Below, piece by piece: positions 26,611 to 39,946 of a stretch of DNA of 64,000 nucleotides. The notes beneath the pieces were generated by a model. It was given only the letters and a program-made list of their open reading frames with translations. It did no database searches and was not told where the DNA came from. The position numbers and the translations under genes were made by a program. Source of the DNA: an uncultured Prochlorococcus sp. (GTDB taxonomy: Bacteria > Cyanobacteriota > Cyanobacteriia > PCC-6307 > Cyanobiaceae); contig CABYNZ010000002.1 of NCBI GenBank assembly GCA_902520485.1, positions 26,879-90,878 of the forward strand. The letters are read 5' to 3'. Each line of letters begins with the position of its first letter. Position 1 is the stretch's first letter.

Positions 26611-27006
26611 TCAATTTTTATTGTTAACTAATCCATAAATACATAAAAGAGGATTCACTATTAAAACAATCCAAAAAGGCGGAGGAGGTCCTCCATCAAC
26701 AATTGTCCCAGCGTTAAAAGTATTGAATAGAGCTACTGCTAAAAAACAAAACATCAAAGCTAATTCACCTGATAAAACTTTTCTTAAAGAGGCTTTATCT
26801 TTTATAGAACTGCAAATAATCAATAAGAAACCAATTCCCAAATTACTAGCTGCTACAACATCTGCAGTACCCCTAACAAGAAGCAATGTTTCACTTGAAG
26901 CGTCGCCTGCTATAGTTTCCACTGAAAAAATAAGTAGAAAAATAATTAAAAATCCCAACAGGAAATGAAGGGCTCCGGTAGTTTTTAAAATATTTTTTAA
27001 CTTCAT
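26611..27006 (-). CDS. hypothetical membrane protein
   Basis: Four hydrophobic segments. Confidence 0.65.
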   Translation of the reverse strand: MKLKNILKTTGALHFLLGFLIIFLLIFSVETIAGDASSETLLLVRGTADVVAASNLGIGFLLIICSSIKDKASLRKVLSGELALMFCFLAVALFNTFNAGTIVDGGPPPPFWIVLIVNPLLCIYGLVNNKN

Positions 27007-27053
27007 AAAAAAAGGAGTTATTTGCCCCTTATTTTAGATCAACTGTCAATCAA
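27004..27053 (-). repeat. Leader repeat copy 1
   Basis: minus strand: ATTGACAGTTGATCTAAAATAAGGGG..ACTCCTTTTTTTATG. Confidence 0.6.
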
Positions 27054-27116
27054 TTAAATTATCCCATGGCTGAGATTTCTTCAGCAAGTTGTTTATTTCT
27101 TAGAATTACTTCTTCA

Positions 27117-27518
27117 TCATTTTAACAAAGAAGCTATAACTGCTGCATGCCCCCCAAAACAAAATCCAACAATTGAGATTTTCTTTTTTGGATATTTTTC
27201 TTTAACCCAATTTAGTGCTGCAGAAATATCTTTAATAATATTTTTTGAAGTGGTTAAATTTTTATGATGTCTGCTTAATTTCAAGTCTTCTTCGCTGTAT
27301 GCTAAATCTAATTTTGGAGCTGTTCTTCCGTAAAGGGGTAAGGCTAATACAGGTACATTTTGTTTGGCTAATTTTTCAGAAAAACTCCTTATCCAGTGAT
27401 TTATCCCAAACACCTCGGGTAAAACTATAGATATATATTCACACTCATCACCTGAATCTACCCACCAAGATCTAAGAGGTAAATCACCACTATAAATGTT
27501 TGTCCATTGACCTTTCAT
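27117..27518 (-). pseudogene. Dienelactone-hydrolase-like protein, probably C-terminally truncated
   Basis: VGFCFGGHAAVIASLLK* ends just after the nucleophile elbow. Confidence 0.6.
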
Positions 27519-27545
27519 TTGAAATTACATAAAAAGTTTGTTTCA

Positions 27546-27592
27546 GAAAAAAGAGGCTTATTTATTCTTATAGGTTAGATCGATTGTCAATG
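27546..27592 (-). repeat. Leader repeat copy 2
   Basis: minus strand: ATTGACAATCGATCTAACC....GCCTCTTTTTT. Confidence 0.6.
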
Positions 27593-27830
27593 TAATTTTC
27601 CTTATTCAATTTTATAAATTAAATCTTAAATTATATAGAGAAACTTATATTGAACTCATTTTTATATAAGTTATATAAATCAAATTAAGTAGTCTTTTTT
27701 ACCAATTGAATATACCTGTTGTTAAATAAATATATTTGTCCTTGAAAAGCTCCTAAAAAATACTTTTTCTTGAAATAAAGATTGACAAGACATTCATAAA
27801 AAAAACTTTTATAAAACATTAACTTCTTTT

Positions 27831-28145
27831 ATGAATATGTTTCTAACCAACAAGACTCGTTTAAAAATTAAGAATATTGTAAAGAGGATTTCATTAGATG
27901 AACCTGTCGCATTAGAAGAAAGAATTTTTGTAGAAAAGTTTGCAAAACATAATTCAACTATATGGACATGGCTTAAGAAAGCTAATAGCTTGAGAAGATA
28001 TGGCAAGCAAAAATCAGATGGAATAAATGGACTCATACAGAATCTTGGCCTTGATGGTTTAGAAACTGAAAATCATTTTGATCCCAAAAATGATGATCTT
28101 GCTGACTGGTTCAGTGGATCTCCTGACTGGGTGAGAAGGAGCTAA
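27831..28145 (+). CDS. conserved hypothetical protein
   Basis: 104-aa ORF; DDLADWFSGSPDWVRRS. Confidence 0.65.
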   Translation: MNMFLTNKTRLKIKNIVKRISLDEPVALEERIFVEKFAKHNSTIWTWLKKANSLRRYGKQKSDGINGLIQNLGLDGLETENHFDPKNDDLADWFSGSPDWVRRS

Positions 28146-28171
28146 TTACCCTTAGTTTAAAATCAATTAAA

Positions 28172-28342
28172 TTAATAATGAAAAAAGGGAACTTCCTCAA
28201 TTTGTCTTGGAGCATAATCACAAATTCCGAATTGCATACATTCCACTTGAGCATCAGTTAGTTTTCTCTCAATTGAAAACGAATCTAACAAAACACCAAA
28301 TACATGTTGAATTTTATTTTTAATTAGATTTCCGTAAGTCAT
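28172..28342 (-). CDS. small hypothetical protein (56 aa)
   Basis: MTYGNLIKNKIQHVFGVLLDSFSIERKLTDAQVECMQFGICDYAPRQIEEVPFFHY*; AGAGG-type SD. Confidence 0.55.
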   Translation of the reverse strand: MTYGNLIKNKIQHVFGVLLDSFSIERKLTDAQVECMQFGICDYAPRQIEEVPFFHY

Positions 28343-28532
28343 AATTAACCTCTTTTTTTTAGAAGTTATTTAGTATGAGTTATATTCAAGAATCAAGAAT
28401 TTTAATACCTAAAATACAAACTATAAATTAATCTTTTTTAAAATATTTCACTAAATTAATAATCAGTATTTTTGCTCTAGGAAATTTTAATTAAAAACTC
28501 TAAGTTAGACCCACTGATTGAGGTTTAACTTC

Positions 28533-28646
28533 ATGAGTACTTACAAAACGAAATACTTTAAAAACACAAAAAAGATCAATAACACTCTTTGGTTGGATAA
28601 ATTAATTAATCAACTTGAAAAAAAATCAAAGGGAGTTTGTTCATGA
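28533..28646 (+). CDS. microprotein, WLDxLIN family copy 1
   Basis: MSTYKTKYFKNTKKINNTLWLDKLINQLEKKSKGVCS*; stop overlaps next ATG. Confidence 0.5.
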   Translation: MSTYKTKYFKNTKKINNTLWLDKLINQLEKKSKGVCS

Positions 28647-28807
28647 ATACATTTAGAAATAAACAATTCAAAAATGAATTAGATCCCAAGTATGCCTTCT
28701 ATGGTTGTCTTCGTAGTTGCGAAATTAAGAGTAATACTGAAAAGTCTCTTGAAGAATGCGTCGAAAATTGTGAACCTAGATTATTACCAGAGAATCTTGA
28801 TAGCTAA
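28643..28807 (+). CDS. microprotein with twin CX3C motif
   Basis: MNTFRNKQFKNELDPKYAFYGCLRSCEIKSNTEKSLEECVENCEPRLLPENLDS*. Confidence 0.6.
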   Translation: MNTFRNKQFKNELDPKYAFYGCLRSCEIKSNTEKSLEECVENCEPRLLPENLDS

Positions 28808-28884
28808 AAATAGGAATTTAAACTCTATTCAATAACTATTTTGACCTTATAGAGTTTTTATATAGATTTAAGGAGGGTAATCTT

Positions 28885-29043
28885 ATGACCAACCTCGCAA
28901 TTGCGCTACTTCTTCTAATTATAATTTTAGTTAATTTTGGAGCGATCCTTACCGCTAAAATTTATTCACAATCACTAAAAGAAATTCAACGTAAGAGAAT
29001 ATTTTGTAGAGAATCTATAAGTAACCCATATTGTGTTTTTTGA
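28885..29043 (+). CDS. single-TM microprotein
   Basis: AAGGAGGG SD; MTNLAIALLLLIIILVNFGAILTAKIYSQSLKEIQRKRIFCRESISNPYCVF*. Confidence 0.6.
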   Translation: MTNLAIALLLLIIILVNFGAILTAKIYSQSLKEIQRKRIFCRESISNPYCVF

Positions 29044-29110
29044 TAAATTAATTCCAAACTAATAGATCTCAAACTAGAGATCTAATATTAAAAGTTAAAG
29101 TCCGCCAAAA

Positions 29111-29218
29111 CTAAAAATAAGGTGTATATGGTACTTCTGTTTTTAATGAATCTCCGTAGTAACTTTCAGCTGACTTTACCAAGATCCAATAAATGAAATT
29201 TAGAAATGATTTTTCCAT
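29111..29218 (-). CDS. microprotein, MEKxxxNFxYW family copy 1
   Basis: MEKSFLNFIYWILVKSAESYYGDSLKTEVPYTPYF*. Confidence 0.55.
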   Translation of the reverse strand: MEKSFLNFIYWILVKSAESYYGDSLKTEVPYTPYF

Positions 29219-29442
29219 AGGAATATCTATACCCTTTTCTTATTCAAATCAGAATTTAAAATAAAAACATCGTAGAAAATACTTAACTGAAGAGATTTAG
29301 ATTTTCTTAGTTAATTTGTGTTGGTTAGGTTTGTATGAAATGCTACTAAAGCTTGTCTTATCAACCAATTTGGTAATATTGCTTATTGATTCCTGTAATT
29401 TCAAAAGATATATTAAATGGATAATCTAAATATAAGAAATTT

Positions 29443-29559
29443 ATGAGTACTCAAAAAAGTCAAAGCCATAAAAGACAAGAGCAAAATAATACAGAATGGT
29501 TAGATGAATTAATCAATAAAATTGAAAATATGAAAAATAAAATATCTAATACTTTTTAA
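29443..29559 (+). CDS. microprotein, WLDxLIN family copy 2
   Basis: MSTQKSQSHKRQEQNNTEWLDELINKIENMKNKISNTF*. Confidence 0.5.
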   Translation: MSTQKSQSHKRQEQNNTEWLDELINKIENMKNKISNTF

Positions 29560-29616
29560 CTAATTATTTCTTCTATCATTTATTCCGTATTGATAATGTA
29601 GTTAAGTACAAAAAAG

Positions 29617-29940
29617 TTGATTATGAAAAATTTTATACTAATAATAGTCTCTTTATCTTTCTTATCTTCTTGCAGTAATGACAAAGATTTTTTTCTCACT
29701 AAGGGGAACGCTTTGTTAAGTTGCGGAGGTAAATCTCGTATTATCGAAAATGATAAAGAAGAGATAATTAATACTGAAGTTAAGGATTTAAGAGATGGAA
29801 TTGGTAAATACGTTGAATTTACAGTTGTTGAGACTGATAAAAAAGGAGGCAAATATAGGATTATTAATTGTTTCCCAAGTGAAGAACCACAAGATTCAAT
29901 AATAAAAACTGTTAAAACAAATTATAAATTAAGTAATTAA
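29617..29940 (+). CDS. small lipoprotein (internal start 29623 also possible)
   Basis: FILIIVSLSFLSSCSND lipobox. Confidence 0.7.
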   Translation: MIMKNFILIIVSLSFLSSCSNDKDFFLTKGNALLSCGGKSRIIENDKEEIINTEVKDLRDGIGKYVEFTVVETDKKGGKYRIINCFPSEEPQDSIIKTVKTNYKLSN

Positions 29941-29968
29941 AAGTTATTTAAAAATAATTAGCTTACCT

Positions 29969-30832
29969 TTAAGATGCGATTTTTGATGATTTGATAATTT
30001 CCCATGCTTCTGATGCGGTATCTGCATATTGGAAAAGATTTAAGTTTTCATCTGAAATTAATCCAAGATCAGCTAGATATTCGAAGTTAATTATCTTATT
30101 CCAATAATCTCTACCAAAAAGTATGATCGGGATTTTAGTTTTCATTCCTGTTTGACAAAGTGTCAATAGTTCAAATAATTCATCTAGTGTTCCAAAACCT
30201 CCAGGAAAAAATACAGCAGCTACTGATCGCATGACAAAATGGATCTTTCTTAATGCAAAATAATTAAACTTAAAGCAAAGACCGGGAGTTATAAAAGCAT
30301 TTGGGATTTGTTCATTAGGCAGACTGATATTTAACCCTATAGATTTACAATTTGCTTCAAATGCACCTCTATTAGCAGCTTCCATAATTCCTGGCCCCCC
30401 ACCTGTCACAATCACATGAGAATTACAGTTTTTATTTTGATTACTAATTGAAGCAAGTTTAGAAAACTCCCTTGCGGATTGATAGTAATGACTCATAAGA
30501 AGCAAATTTTCTAATCTATTTAAATTACGTTTTAAAAGTATCGATTTAGGATTTTTTTTAAGCAACTCTTCTATATTTTTAAGTCTCTTTTTTATATTTG
30601 CTTCTTCTGTAATGCTTGCGCCTCCAAAAATAATTATTGTTGAAAGAATTTTATTTTCTTCAAGGATTAAATCTGGTTTAGTAATTTCAAGAAGCATTCT
30701 GACTCCACGCATTTCATTTCGGCTAAGTAAACCAATATCTTCGTGAGCCAATTTATAAGTATCAGAATTAATAATTAAATTCAGGTTTTTTAAATTATTA
30801 ATAGGGTATATATGTTTTTTCATTTCAAACAA
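29969..30832 (-). CDS. LOG-family (TIGR00730-like) protein
   Basis: VIVTGGGPGIMEAANRGA, FFPGGFGTLDELFELLTL. Confidence 0.88.
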   Translation of the reverse strand: MFEMKKHIYPINNLKNLNLIINSDTYKLAHEDIGLLSRNEMRGVRMLLEITKPDLILEENKILSTIIIFGGASITEEANIKKRLKNIEELLKKNPKSILLKRNLNRLENLLLMSHYYQSAREFSKLASISNQNKNCNSHVIVTGGGPGIMEAANRGAFEANCKSIGLNISLPNEQIPNAFITPGLCFKFNYFALRKIHFVMRSVAAVFFPGGFGTLDELFELLTLCQTGMKTKIPIILFGRDYWNKIINFEYLADLGLISDENLNLFQYADTASEAWEIIKSSKIAS

Positions 30833-31343
30833 GAGTTTTAACTTTTCTTTCTAGAGGATTAAAATAGACTCTTTTGATTTTGTTATTTTCGTAAATCCAA
30901 TAAACAGGCGGACTTTTTCTTGCCTTAATTAAATTAATTTTGTCTAACTTTTGAGGGGTAAATTCTTTAGAAGGATCAAAAAATTTATCTCTCTTGGGTT
31001 GGTTTAAAACAATACTACCTTCTTTCCCTGAGATAGATCTGTGATAAGTTCCTACAGGAATTTCTAATGCTCCCATAGATCTATTTAAATAAATCACATG
31101 ATGAGGTTCATCCCAGGAAGGATTTATTAAAACAAATGTCCTTTCTCCAGTGATAACTAAATTGTGGTCAATTTGATGATTGTGAACGTAATATTGCTCA
31201 TCTTTTAAATCATCTGGAGGAGATATAGCTTCTCCAGAATGGATCACAACATCAGAACCATTAGAACTATCTATGCCTGCATCGAAGAATGTGACTTTTG
31301 GAGTCTCTCTAAAAATATTTATTGGGAAGAATCTTAATTCCAT
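30825..31343 (-). CDS. cupin-like conserved hypothetical protein
   Basis: ORF overlapping the LOG gene; YVHNHQIDHNLVITGERTFVLINP. Confidence 0.6.
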   Translation of the reverse strand: MELRFFPINIFRETPKVTFFDAGIDSSNGSDVVIHSGEAISPPDDLKDEQYYVHNHQIDHNLVITGERTFVLINPSWDEPHHVIYLNRSMGALEIPVGTYHRSISGKEGSIVLNQPKRDKFFDPSKEFTPQKLDKINLIKARKSPPVYWIYENNKIKRVYFNPLERKVKTLV

Positions 31344-31422
31344 AGTGCTAACTCCCTTTTAGAAAATTTATAAATACTAATAAAAATTTATTTACTTTTA
31401 AAAAACAGCTATTTAATTTTTT

Positions 31423-31569
31423 TTAATTGCAACAAACCAGGCAATCTTCTTGATTTGGATAATCTATACATTCTTTATTTAAAATTTCTTCTAAAAAATC
31501 TACTTTTTTAACATAATCAAGATCTTTTAATTTTTTGTTTGGAACCGTGAACTGAGTTTGTAGTTTCAT
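31423..31569 (-). CDS. microprotein with C-terminal Cys tail, copy 1
   Basis: MKLQTQFTVPNKKLKDLDYVKKVDFLEEILNKECIDYPNQEDCLVCCN*. Confidence 0.6.
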   Translation of the reverse strand: MKLQTQFTVPNKKLKDLDYVKKVDFLEEILNKECIDYPNQEDCLVCCN

Positions 31570-31584
31570 TTTCTATTCTCCTAA

Positions 31585-31686
31585 TTAATACTGTTTTTTG
31601 AATCCATTCCAAGTTTGAGAAAACCTTAATCCCAGATAAGAAATTAAAATTGTCCAAAATAAAATTTCTATACCTAAATTAGTCAT
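31585..31686 (-). CDS. single-TM microprotein
   Basis: AAAGGAGG SD; MTNLGIEILFWTILISYLGLRFSQTWNGFKKQY*. Confidence 0.6.
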   Translation of the reverse strand: MTNLGIEILFWTILISYLGLRFSQTWNGFKKQY

Positions 31687-31772
31687 TTGCTTGGCCTCCT
31701 TTCTTTCTGATTATTCTTTAGTACGGGTATTATGTAAAAATCAAGCGTAAGAATACCTAAAAGTTAAAGTTT

Positions 31773-31925
31773 TTAATCACAAAAAATCTTGCAATGATTG
31801 TTACTCGGATGTTCTGTACATTCATTATTCCAATAAGCTTCAATTTTTTTGAGCTTATTATCAAATGAAAGGTCTTTTTTATCCAAATTAATTTCTTGGA
31901 TAGTAAATGTGTCATTTAGTGCCAT
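31773..31925 (-). CDS. microprotein with C-terminal Cys tail, copy 2 (ORF track start 32030 is probably too far upstream)
   Basis: AAAGGGG SD; MALNDTFTIQEINLDKKDLSFDNKLKKIEAYWNNECTEHPSNNHCKIFCD*. Confidence 0.6.
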   Translation of the reverse strand: MALNDTFTIQEINLDKKDLSFDNKLKKIEAYWNNECTEHPSNNHCKIFCD

Positions 31926-32291
31926 AAGACTTACCCCTTTACTACAACTATGTTCTAATTCATTTGAATAGTAAATTTCAAGTTTTATGTGTGCGGTAAG
32001 AGGAACAAAATTGTACGGATTAAGGATCAAAAAAAAATCTCAAATTATAAATAATTGCAAGGAAAATATCTTCAAAAAATTTATTCCAACTTTATAAAAA
32101 TTTGTATAAATTTTGCTAGAAATTTTATTCTTTTAATACCTTCTTATGTCTGCTAGTATCTATCATTCATCTAATCTATCTGCATATTCTCTTAAAATCT
32201 CAACCATCTTTTGATGTGGAATTTTTTGTCGATATTCTCTAAAAAATCAAAAAATTTATCTAATTAATCTTTATTGGAAAAGATATAAAAA

Positions 32292-32387
32292 TTAGCGTCT
32301 CATTTTAAAAGTAAAGTATGCAAACCCACCAAGCAATAAAAGACTTACAACCCCATAAGAAATCGCTATGCCGTAGATGTAAGTCAT
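32292..32387 (-). CDS. TM microprotein (3rd gene of coupled operon)
   Basis: MTYIYGIAISYGVVSLLLLGGFAYFTFKMRR*; ATGA overlap with upstream gene. Confidence 0.6.
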   Translation of the reverse strand: MTYIYGIAISYGVVSLLLLGGFAYFTFKMRR

Positions 32388-32524
32388 TTATTTATAAAGA
32401 CATAAGCAGAATATAAATAAACTAAAAAAACTCCAATAGCTATGGAACTTCCATAAATAAGAAAGTTCCAGAATCTATATAATTTAGGTTTTTTAAATTC
32501 TTTTTCTTCTTCTTTAGTAATCAT
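32384..32524 (-). CDS. TM microprotein (2nd gene)
   Basis: MITKEEEKEFKKPKLYRFWNFLIYGSSIAIGVFLVYLYSAYVFINK*; ATGA overlap. Confidence 0.6.
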   Translation of the reverse strand: MITKEEEKEFKKPKLYRFWNFLIYGSSIAIGVFLVYLYSAYVFINK

Positions 32525-32637
32525 TTATTTTCTTTTTCTTTTCTGGCAGCATTACCTTTTGCTCTTAATACCAAAGTGATCGTAAGGGCAGTGCTTAATA
32601 TCACAGTATCAATTAATAGGTGCGGGGAAATATTCAT
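32521..32637 (-). CDS. TM microprotein (1st gene)
   Basis: MNISPHLLIDTVILSTALTITLVLRAKGNAARKEKENK*. Confidence 0.55.
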   Translation of the reverse strand: MNISPHLLIDTVILSTALTITLVLRAKGNAARKEKENK

Positions 32638-32696
32638 CAGCTGCAAAGAGAAATAAGAAGAGTCATTATCTTTTCAGCAATAAATCTATTAAACAT

Positions 32697-32742
32697 TAAA
32701 AAAGAGGGATTTATCCCTCTAAGTTTAGATCGACTGTCAATC
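32697..32742 (-). repeat. Leader repeat copy 3
   Basis: minus strand: GATTGACAGTCGATCTAAACTTAGAGGGATAAATCCCTCTTTTTT. Confidence 0.65.
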
Positions 32743-32789
32743 ATAGTCTACTTAACCTTTTTAGCTTCTCTAAAAAAACAGTATTTTAT

Positions 32790-32945
32790 TTAGCCAGAGC
32801 AAGAGAAGGCACCTGCAAGAATATTTTTAAAAATTGGTGCTTGACCCAAGGCATACAAAAAGAAAGTTGATGATGCGAGAGTAATAGCTATTTTAGAAGC
32901 CCTGTTAACTTTCAATTTTGAGACTTTTGCAAATGCAGAGTCCAT
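32790..32945 (-). CDS. small hypothetical membrane protein (51 aa)
   Basis: MDSAFAKVSKLKVNRASKIAITLASSTFFLYALGQAPIFKNILAGAFSCSG*. Confidence 0.55.
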   Translation of the reverse strand: MDSAFAKVSKLKVNRASKIAITLASSTFFLYALGQAPIFKNILAGAFSCSG

Positions 32946-33021
32946 TTGTTCTTTAATTTATTGATCTTATAATAGCTGCAAAAATTAAATATTCAGCATC
33001 AATATTTACCAAAGAATAATT

Positions 33022-33237
33022 TTATTGCTCCTTTTTCTTAGCTTGTATTTTTACTAGCTCAAATTCTTTTTTAGAAACTATTCTGATTTTGTATGCTGGA
33101 TATCTTGTTTTCCACCATTTATTGATCGAAATAGCTACTCCTTCTAAATTTTGGGTACAAATATTGACCCATAGAGTTTTAGTTTCAATTTCTTTGTAGA
33201 ATTCCCAACTTGTAGGTGAAGCCATTAAAAAACGCAA
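33022..33237 (-). CDS. conserved hypothetical protein
   Basis: ASPTSWEFYKEIETKTLWVNICTQNLEGVAISINKWWKTRYPAYKIRIVSKKEFELV. Confidence 0.6.
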   Translation of the reverse strand: MRFLMASPTSWEFYKEIETKTLWVNICTQNLEGVAISINKWWKTRYPAYKIRIVSKKEFELVKIQAKKKEQ

Positions 33238-33550
33238 ATGAAAAAATTCAATAAATTATGGGAAATGGTCCATAAGCTAAAACTTTTGTTTTTTAATGAA
33301 AGGATTTAGTTGAAGATATAGAGTTTTCATTAAGTGGTAATAAAAAACTTTAAACAAAAAATTTACATCACTTTCACCTTCTAGGAAAGTATTACTTTAA
33401 TTTTATAACTAGTTTAAATTAAAAAATATCTCCGCAAAGAAGGGGCCAAAAATTGACCCCTCTTGGTGAAACTCTTCCAAACAAACACCATTAAAATCTT
33501 ACTCTGAAAGTTGCAAAGTTAAACAAATTAACAAAATCAAGATTAACAAT

Positions 33551-33760
33551 TTATGCGGCCTTTTTAAAAGGGTTCATATTCCTTAAAAAGTTATTACTTT
33601 TGCGGGTACTCATTTTTCTATATCTTTGATTTATATCCAGGATATACTTTCTAGCTTTCTTATCACTTTCAATTTTCTTTTTTCGAAGACGTAAAGCCCT
33701 TAAATCTTCTATGGACATGAGGCCATCATCTTCATTGAAATTTAAATGATCAAATTGCAT
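33551..33760 (-). CDS. small basic hypothetical protein
   Basis: 69-aa ORF. Confidence 0.5.
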   Translation of the reverse strand: MQFDHLNFNEDDGLMSIEDLRALRLRKKKIESDKKARKYILDINQRYRKMSTRKSNNFLRNMNPFKKAA

Positions 33761-33888
33761 CAGCTTAAGAAATTAAGTTTCTTCTTTAAGTGCAAGATTA
33801 ACAACCTTATCTTTATTTGCAATAGAGATAATTAACCAACTTAACTCAAATTAGTTATTCAATTTTCAGAAACCTATGAATTTAAGTA

Positions 33889-34005
33889 TTAAAAACTTTT
33901 GATTGAATTAGATGGAACCTTTACAGATACAAATGATTCTCCATAATGAGATTCGGCTGATCTTATCAGTAACCAGTAAAAGAAATTTACTAAAGCTTTC
34001 TCCAC
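33889..34005 (-). CDS. microprotein, MEKxxxNFxYW family copy 2 (GTG start)
   Basis: (V)EKALVNFFYWLLIRSAESHYGESFVSVKVPSNSIKSF*; paralog of 29111..29218. Confidence 0.5.
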   Translation of the reverse strand: MEKALVNFFYWLLIRSAESHYGESFVSVKVPSNSIKSF

Positions 34006-34149
34006 GAGGATTTAGTAACTAATTTAAATAAACTCATCATTTTTGTAATAGCAATATACAAAATAAATTTATTACGCAATCAAGATATTTACCTCATAAA
34101 GCATACTTGCATATTATCTAAGAAAAATTTGCACTCTCAGGCTTTAGGC

Positions 34150-34200
34150 AGCGGACTAAATCCTCGTGGAGTATTGGACTTTAGCCCGCTCTATTTTTTT
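34150..34200 (+). terminator. Stem-loop plus T-tract, possible 3' end of a small RNA
   Basis: AGCGGACTAAATCC...GGACTTTAGCCCGCT then TATTTTTTT. Confidence 0.5.
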
Positions 34201-34398
34201 AGCAAAAGAAAAATAGCACTGCAAGGTAACTAGATCTCCAATTTTTATATTTGGCTCTGAATAAGCTAATTGAGCAAGAGCATCTGAGCATATGTTGGTG
34301 TTTTTTATTGTATAAATTTGCTAAAAAACTTTTGTTATAACAATGGCTTCAGTATTTTTGCTCATTGATATATTCATTCTTAAATAATATTATTATTG

Positions 34399-34515
34399 AT
34401 GCTTAAAGAAGGTTTAATTTTGAAAAAAATAATTAAATTTTATAAAATGCTCAAGAAAAGAATCTATATTCTTAATGCAGAGACTGAATTGAAATTTATA
34501 TTGGAAAATAAGTAA
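34399..34515 (+). CDS. small hypothetical protein
   Basis: MLKEGLILKKIIKFYKMLKKRIYILNAETELKFILENK*; TAATG overlap with next ORF. Confidence 0.4.
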   Translation: MLKEGLILKKIIKFYKMLKKRIYILNAETELKFILENK

Positions 34516-34661
34516 TGGGATTCCCACATTGCCCTATTTGTGTAGTTCTAGCATTTGTTTCAGTTTTTATGGGAGTTACTCGTAGTTATATGTTTTATAT
34601 TCTTGTTCGGGAGTTTATGAGAGCCGAATCTACTTTTAAATTGAAGTTTAGTTCCTATTAA
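34515..34661 (+). CDS. small hypothetical membrane protein
   Basis: MGFPHCPICVVLAFVSVFMGVTRSYMFYILVREFMRAESTFKLKFSSY*. Confidence 0.5.
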   Translation: MGFPHCPICVVLAFVSVFMGVTRSYMFYILVREFMRAESTFKLKFSSY

Positions 34662-34709
34662 TTGTTGACATCTAAGTATAAATACTTTATAAATAGATTG
34701 TAGTGAATA

Positions 34710-34797
34710 CTACAAAATCGTCCGATCTACCATCTGATAGACCGCAGTACGACTCAAGCCATAGGACGGGGACTTGAGCAAGTTCAGGAGCTGCATC
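34710..34797 (+). promoter_or_regulatory. Structured, relatively GC-rich leader
   Basis: CTCAAG...CTTGAG inverted repeat at 34753..34778 with intervening CCATAGGACGGGGA. Confidence 0.4.
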
Positions 34798-34899
34798 ATG
34801 GTAAACATGTATTTCAATGGAAAGTCATTCGTATATTGTAGAAAACAAGAAGAAAAGATTATAAAGCTTACTTATAGGGGATCTATTTACTTAAGATAA
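34798..34899 (+). CDS. DUF4278-like microprotein
   Basis: MVNMYFNGKSFVYCRKQEEKIIKLTYRGSIYLR*; LTYRGxxY motif. Confidence 0.45.
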   Translation: MVNMYFNGKSFVYCRKQEEKIIKLTYRGSIYLR

Positions 34900-35285
34900 G
34901 ATTTTTAATTTCTTTTTTAAAAAGTTTGCAGATTTATTGAAGTTTTTGGATTAAGTATTTATAAATACTTTATAAGAAGAACTTATAATCAATATATTTT
35001 TTGCCTATTTAAAAATTTATATATTCGTATATTTAGTAACTAGAAATTAATCTTAAAAAAATTAATTTGTAATTAGATTTTTAGAAGGTTATGCAACCTA
35101 TTTCTGAGGAACTTTACAAAAAAATAGTTGAGAGTTCTAAAAAATGAGTAAATTACTAATTGCTTTATTGGCTTTAGATATAGGAGTTAGTCTGTCTAAA
35201 GTTTTTATTTTTACCTGAAAATTAAATCACTTAGCATAAAAGAAGCAATTGTTTTCTAAAATAAGAAATAGTTACTGGGTATTAT

Positions 35286-35375
35286 TTATTTTATAAAATA
35301 CAAAATTAAACCAACAAAAGAACTTCCTACAAGTAGTAGCACCATAAAAAGTGCTATTAACTTTGCTAATCCCAT
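35286..35375 (-). CDS. single-TM microprotein (29 aa)
   Basis: MGLAKLIALFMVLLLVGSSFVGLILYFIK*; overlaps the upstream gene end. Confidence 0.45.
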   Translation of the reverse strand: MGLAKLIALFMVLLLVGSSFVGLILYFIK

Positions 35376-35752
35376 AAAGATAAATCCGAATTTCCTGTAG
35401 ATCTTTGCATCCAGTGAATTTTCCAAATATTATTTAATTTTTTAAAAATTGACGTAACTGTTGGTAAGTCATCATTAGGCGTCCCTTTATAAGAAAATTT
35501 TGAACCTAGTGTAAAAATGCACATTACTATATTTTCGCTTAAAAATTCGAATCGGTGAATTTTAGTTATTTCTGCCTTTTCTTGAACAATTTCATCAGTA
35601 ATCATTTGTTCGAAACCTTTTGCATCTATAGGATTACCACTCGGCCTTATGAATAAAAAATCTTGAGTCGCATTATTAACAAAAAATGAGGCCATTTTTT
35701 TTGGATTAGCAAAATCATTTAATAATGAAATTATTGTTTCTTTATCATTCAT
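35366..35752 (-). CDS. SnoaL/NTF2-like protein
   Basis: 128 aa; PKKMASFFVNNATQDFLFIRPSGNPIDAKGFEQMI...TSIFKKLNNIWKIHWMQRS. Confidence 0.6.
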   Translation of the reverse strand: MNDKETIISLLNDFANPKKMASFFVNNATQDFLFIRPSGNPIDAKGFEQMITDEIVQEKAEITKIHRFEFLSENIVMCIFTLGSKFSYKGTPNDDLPTVTSIFKKLNNIWKIHWMQRSTGNSDLSLWD

Positions 35753-35797
35753 AAAAAAAGGGACGTAACTCTTCTAGTTTAGATTGACTGTCTAAAA
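35752..35797 (-). repeat. Leader repeat copy 4
   Basis: minus strand: AGACAGTCAATCTAAACTAGAAGAGTTACGTCCCTTTTTTTATG. Confidence 0.55.
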
Positions 35798-39619: not shown

Positions 39620-39648
39620 GAGCTTGCAAGTATCCCACCGGCAAGCTC
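39620..39648. other. Perfect stem-loop GAGCTTGC-N13-GCAAGCTC
   Basis: Inverted repeat in a gene-free stretch. Confidence 0.5.
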
Positions 39649-39946
39649 ATGACGACCTAGTTAATTCATTTTTTTTGATTTAACCAGCTAAGCACTTCCT
39701 AAATGCTTCTTCTATCTTACTAAGTAAAATTACTCACTGTGAGTATAAATGCTCATTTCCAGTGATTTATCTGCAAATTTGATAATAAAAGGTGATTTAA
39801 TCAAAAATTATGACCTGTTAATTGTTTTTAAGCAGATATGTCACATACTGACCCGTAAAGTAAATACTAAGAGGAAAATTATTAGAAATTTTGGTTTACA
39901 TAAGTTAATACATGTGTTACATTAGTTAACAATTATTATCTTTTTA

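Follow-up and report, generated by a model that had tools for sequence, protein, structure and literature searches.

We describe a 44-nt element that occurs in four copies, all on the minus strand, in a 64,000-nt stretch of DNA from an uncultured Prochlorococcus sp. (contig CABYNZ010000002.1; hereafter the window) and that recurs throughout the genus. The copies share a consensus, GATTGACAGTCGATCTAAAATAAGGGGCAATTAGCTCCTTTTTTT, made up of a conserved tag, a hairpin and a T-run and usually followed by ATG or AATG. The patterns of conservation and of gene exchange around these copies suggest that the element is probably a compact transcription-punctuation unit that doubles as a shuffling joint for small-gene cassettes in Prochlorococcus islands. 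Its copies are arranged in arrays of small open reading frames (ORFs), mostly single and head to tail, and lie between the stop codon of one gene and the start codon of the next.

Distribution of the element in Prochlorococcus

All four minus-strand copies given in a preliminary description of the window are present, each within 2 nt of where that description placed it. A 21-position profile, trained on element copies of other genomes and applied at a threshold of 10, picks out exactly four matches in the window, and the reversed window gives none. Over 19 island loci (346 kb), the same profile and threshold give 81 matches against one in the reversed control. A plain 15-mer search allowing up to three mismatches gives six matches in the window where 1.4 are expected; we set aside the two extra matches as chance, the remaining four being real copies.

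The family is far larger than the four copies first proposed, since at least seven further copies are found in the rest of the source genome (11 in total). Tag searches locate the element in named Prochlorococcus genomes and in 24 of 24 tested fellow members of the window's genus, where genus membership is taken from taxonomy labels and Prochlorococcus-named records. A sequence-only model built from 56 copies extends this to 101 of 101 genomes of the genus, with 2-27 copies each, clustered in islands. The further copies in related genomes on which the preliminary description had staked the family are thus many. Sampling across the family adds nine members of the genus with 9-20 copies each, and 16 of 191 genomes of other genera have one or two matches, mostly marginal. 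One of these 16 has a strong match: G275, a complete genome of 2.3 Mb from another genus, holds a single copy, and an ATP-grasp-type gene starts right past its T-run. Clustering is also apparent in two complete genomes, in which 12 and 11 gaps between neighbouring copies are shorter than 10 kb, against 1.8 and 2.1 at random.

Anatomy of the element and its predicted function in transcription

The tag, GATYGAC-A-GTCRATC, is by far the best-conserved part of the element and forms a 15-bp dyad with a 1-nt centre, TTGACA being half of this dyad. A -10-type element of the form TAnnnT (TAAAAT or TAAACT) follows 7 nt past TTGACA. This spacer rules out TTGACA as a -35 box, and no TTGACA match 16-18 nt ahead of the -10 rises beyond noise. 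TAnnnT is found in 235 of 258 copies, and its presence is associated with a downstream gene (138 of the 139 copies directly preceding an ORF versus 181 of 205 other copies, p=3e-5). Its last T, which lies at or just outside the edge of the search patterns, is conserved in 92% of the first copy set and in all 139 copies directly preceding an ORF. The common promoter suggested in the preliminary description is therefore well supported through TAnnnT, though it is not the TTGACA promoter proposed there.

The -10 is followed by a hairpin of 5-7 bp, which falls into two main types (GGGGC/GCTCC and GAGGG/CCCTC), and then by the T-run. The hairpin arms pair better than arms re-dealt among copies in each of two geometries (0.68 vs 0.61 and 0.77 vs 0.70), with no shuffle reaching the observed value in either; re-dealing was used in place of a first covariation test, which swapped hairpin halves and was weak. 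Among foldable copies, the loop begins 6-8 nt past the -10 in 137 of 146. The start codon lies 0-1 nt past the T-run in 124 of 196 copies, and an ORF of at least 30 aa (median 94 aa) opens at that start codon in 139 of 344 copies, compared with 18 of 310 control positions. On the other side of the element, 121 of 325 copies have an open frame of at least 40 codons that ends no more than 30 nt from the tag, versus 16% of random positions, and the upstream stop codon touches or falls inside the element in 33 copies, such as the TGA of GATTGA. Many copies of the element are decayed.

Sigma-70-type promoters start transcription at an established distance past the -10. Given this distance and the position of the loop, transcription is predicted to start within the hairpin loop, and the element's own transcript would then be without the 5′ arm and unable to fold the full hairpin and terminator. 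The gene downstream would be transcribed from a promoter made up of the dyad and TAnnnT, where a repressor or activator may bind the dyad, and the hairpin and T-run would terminate the upstream gene. Read-through from the upstream gene would include both arms and stop at the terminator, and the new mRNA without the 5′ arm would escape. Its pyrimidine-rich CUCCUUUUUUU leader, which consists of the 3′ arm and the U-run and abuts the start codon, may serve as an S1-type ribosome entry site. For strain MED4, leaders rich in pyrimidines have been proposed to support S1-dependent initiation (PMC5607370).

Two other roles raised in the preliminary description fare less well. An attenuator is unlikely in view of the predicted start in the loop; termination of the upstream gene is the more plausible role of the hairpin. 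The idea of a small-RNA family has no support: Rfam covariance models run over the window detect Yfr20, a tRNA and glutamine-II and nothing at the copies, and the hairpin runs straight into start codons.

Gene shuffling at the element

Of the three suggestions made earlier, a mobile regulatory cassette comes closest, and we can add that the element recurs genus-wide at the joints of permuted genes. To describe these joints, 80 bp on each side were clustered for 344 distinct copies, and loci counted as duplicates, and removed, only where the element and ~60 bp to either side matched exactly. Counted per anchor, a shared left flank leads to a non-homologous right side in 77% of cases at elements, compared with 18% at random positions and 33% at gene 3′ ends drawn from the same loci, in statistics that treat loci as independent although the strains are related. 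The most promiscuous left flank, cluster 1, occurs 28 times with 24 different right flanks. This cluster (for example in L034, L135 and L155) corresponds to a fragment from the 5′ part of a gene for a small secreted protein (MKRLLLAPLY*).

The arrays themselves have the layout of exchangeable units. Neighbouring elements have the same orientation in 156 pairs and opposite orientations in 17, with a median spacing of 760 bp between same-orientation neighbours. Seven arrays contain a 348-bp unit with a 102-aa gene (MTAQNFMNVV...), which is flanked there by at least five different neighbours on the left and at least five on the right. Comparison of loci reveals 15 units that one locus contains and another precisely lacks, and in these pairs the switch from shared to unshared sequence is located at the element. 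The hairpin sequence tends to be common to pairs that share the right gene and not to pairs that share the left only. The hairpin thus travels with the right gene, which places the switches in or before the tag.

We infer from these sequence patterns that short homology in the conserved tag would allow general or phage-borne recombination to swap cassettes, and that after such a swap each gene would retain a working stop, terminator, promoter and start. Recombination at short homology is the simplest exchange route. A dedicated site-specific, integron-like system, in which a trans-acting recombinase binds the dyad and moves the cassettes and the terminator-like part is incidental, would also account for head-to-tail single-gene cassettes with precise presence and absence, for a crossover in or before the tag and for the tag being the most conserved part. 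We nevertheless regard such a system as unlikely. Among 18 near-complete genomes with arrays, eight (G015, G054, G075, G209, G250, G303, G002 and G291) contain no more than one tyrosine recombinase, which lies at a distance from the arrays mapped. We do not favour a dedicated integrase because this lone 389-aa recombinase is family-wide, being present in 52 of 59 sampled genera, nearly all of which are without the element. Moreover, a dyad with a 1-nt centre is unlike a tyrosine-recombinase core, and the conserved -10 and the abutting start codon would be left unexplained.

The same flank statistics bear on a second explanation, to which we assign a similarly low probability, namely that the element is an ordinary spacer of shared promoter and terminator (a regulon) that is copied by normal island plasticity and has no part in recombination. 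The dyad beside the -10 does have the look of a regulon operator, the downstream ORFs are small and accessory and often belong to DUF families (DUF3764, DUF3804, DUF1330 and DUF3303), and the random and gene-end controls indicate that islands vary without the element. However, discordance at elements is four times that at random positions and more than twice that at gene ends of the same loci, and the switches in presence/absence pairs sit at the element itself. A non-autonomous mobile repeat (like repetitive extragenic palindromes or miniature inverted-repeat transposable elements, REP/MITE) transposing by itself into intergenic sites is very improbable: it would suit a short, dispersed, multi-copy, genus-wide sequence with one strong isolated copy in another genus, but no target-site duplications or terminal inverted repeats were noticed among the copies inspected, a free transposer would insert both ways where orientation is strongly uniform, the position is tied to stop and start codons, and presence and absence are cassette-sized.

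Several points weigh against the element being both a punctuation unit and a shuffling joint. The promoter and terminator roles are predictions, and the conservation of the tag could reflect a DNA-binding protein or a recombinase instead of a promoter. Hairpin covariation is modest, with two hairpin types dominating; many hairpins are weak (87 of 155 reach -4 kcal/mol or lower), and ~25% of copies have no clear T-run. Some 60% of copies have no obvious ORF directly behind them, although short peptides may have been missed. Islands are plastic in any case, so that some of the discordance at elements is background (33% at gene ends). Finally, arrays on the same contig come largely from single-cell drafts, in which repeats may be mis-joined, although complete genomes show the same arrays.

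Possible carriage by cyanophages

A 15-mer scan of viral contigs (viral_contigs) returns 86 stretches, nearly all of which are chance matches within genes. Two metagenomic contigs join cyanophage genes to Prochlorococcus island cassettes: L234:1-6609, with three full elements and the cyanophage genes uvsX, helicase and MazG, and L292:1-5696, with a full element and the cyanophage genes PhoH and exonuclease. In both, host and phage sequence meet at A/T-rich microhomology some 25-40 bp away from the element. Among 160 cyanophage uvsX/phoH loci, the element is found in only one contig (L292/L376), and phage records give no significant match to the element and none to three cassette proteins. An 85-kb contig, putatively viral, has a near-perfect element at its stored end (L185:1-100), and the genes beside this element have no match to known phage. 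We therefore set aside a phage origin, given that the joins lie off the element, that the other uvsX/phoH loci are without it and that L185 matches no known phage. Chimeric assembly, as opposed to real transfer, is likely enough that we build no claim on these contigs. L234 and L292 suggest that cyanophages may carry cassettes, a suggestion that loses strength because the joins lie away from the element, which is also missing from the remaining uvsX/phoH loci retrieved and from the phage collection.

Element copies in the window

The four copies of the window illustrate different states of the element (Table 1). As the preliminary description had noted, each copy is at or shortly upstream of a minus-strand ORF; the ATG lies 0-1 nt past the T-run in three copies, and copy 2 is 28 nt upstream of its ORF. 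The 131-aa gene begun by copy 1 belongs to right-flank cluster 3, which has 11 different left flanks across genomes. The dienelactone-hydrolase ORF after the degenerate copy 2 is probably a decayed or recombined cassette. The stretch from the end of this ORF to copy 1 holds the 3′ terminus of an unrelated gene (...NKQLAEEISAMG*, left-flank cluster 6), which is a sign of a past junction. Copy 3 has the joint that is kept between strains (left cluster 0 and right cluster 0), and the ATG following it opens nothing longer than a 19-aa frame.

Table 1. Copies of the element, the reading frames behind them and nearby RNA features, in window coordinates.
Feature	Position	Strand	Description
Gene begun by copy 1	26611-27006	-	131 aa, small, membrane-like, family unassigned (MKLKNILKTTGALHF)
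Copy 1	27007-27051	-	Dyad tag GATTGACAGTTGATC; -10-like TAAAAT 27036-27031; hairpin AAGGGGC-AAATA-ACTCC(TT); T-run 27013-27007, directly abutting ATG at 27006
ORF after copy 2	27117-27518	-	Dienelactone-hydrolase family, truncated at 133 aa
Copy 2	27547-27592	-	Degenerate: CATTGACAATCGATCTAACCT, weak hairpin, T-run 27552-27547
Putative short ORFs after copy 3	32384-32696	-	19-aa frame from 32696, then 41-aa and 46-aa frames
Copy 3	32698-32742	-	Perfect tag GATTGACAGTCGATCTAAACT; hairpin AGAGGG-ATAAAT-CCCTCT; T-run 32703-32698; then AATG
Glutamine-II riboswitch	34716-34778	+	Near the array
Gene begun by copy 4	35366-35752	-	128 aa, DUF3804 protein
Copy 4	35753-35796	-	TTTAGACAGTCAATCTAAACT, weak hairpin, T-run abutting ATG at 35752
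Yfr20 small RNA	39621-39708	-	Near the array

In MED4, Yfr20 is a marker of genomic island 5 (PMC2518516), and the window thus probably covers this island. A second dispersed joint occurs in the same islands and is absent from the window. It is made up of truncated copies of an EVE-domain-like gene that retain its 5′ end (ATGACTGAAGAAAAGTTTTGGCTAATGAAAAGTGAGC, with CCCTTGATAT ahead of it), found in L070, L088, L266, L270, L276, L279, L286, L287 and others, with three in one 20-kb locus. This repeat resembles the attachment-site duplication of a gene start.

Comparison with known systems

Our literature search, which did not extend to Coleman et al. 2006, found no description of the element. 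By analogy, its closest described counterpart appears to be the promoter early stem-loop (PeSL) of T4-type phages, which is reportedly due originally to Arbiol (2010) and Comeau (2014). PeSL is presented as a composite promoter-terminator motif mediating modular shuffling (PMC4503421). The two seem very close in architecture and proposed role, as far as details can be compared by description only: both combine a conserved promoter and a stem-loop terminator motif in a short sequence between small genes, on sequence evidence, and both are dense where shuffling is intense, as in the 77% discordance and 15 presence/absence events reported above. Unlike PeSL, which resides in T4-type phage genomes, the present element lies in bacterial chromosomal islands, has an unrelated sequence and carries its promoter half ahead of and overlapping the terminator, with the predicted start in the loop and start codons abutting the T-run. 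As it is chromosomal and unrelated in sequence, we do not file it as PeSL.

Within Prochlorococcus, Coleman et al. 2006 (in Science) reportedly noted a 48-bp repeated element in islands, as a repeat only. This repeat may be the same as the present element, which it reportedly resembles in organisms, islands, size and copy number. The dyad, the -10, the loop-located start, the terminator, the start codon and the permutation of cassettes are not known from that account.

The arrays also resemble integrons in that promiscuous single-gene cassettes, mostly of unknown function, are lined up in one orientation with a short shared element. In contrast to integrons, there is no integrase at the arrays, the only candidate being the family-wide recombinase described above. 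The element is shorter than attC and carries a -10 and a terminator, and neither of the attC boxes (RYYYAAC and GTTRRRY) is seen on inspection in the consensus of 56 copies. Tycheposons integrate in association with tRNAs and carry a tyrosine recombinase. Their occurrence in Prochlorococcus is mentioned in PMC10654061 and PMC10872708. The likeness to these elements is one of island plasticity in the same organisms; they differ in that most complete genomes have mapped arrays without a nearby tyrosine recombinase, and in that single genes are exchanged.

Implications for Prochlorococcus islands

We tentatively raise, as a possibility that we think somewhat less probable than its opposite, that these arrays constitute an integrase-free cassette system in a cellular genus, with a 44-nt nested promoter-in-terminator as the universal connector of single small genes and with exchange among strains by short-homology recombination, possibly via cyanophages. 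If true, a start site inside a terminator loop would be an economical packing of insulation and initiation into 44 bp. The micro-genes of islands and their starts could be annotated from the element, and their expression could be treated as that of one regulon. It is a standing question how the most abundant photosynthetic cell combines a small fixed genome with a vast pool of exchangeable genes, and a defined 44-nt joint makes this question testable, in that cassette boundaries become predictable and the recombination route can be sought.

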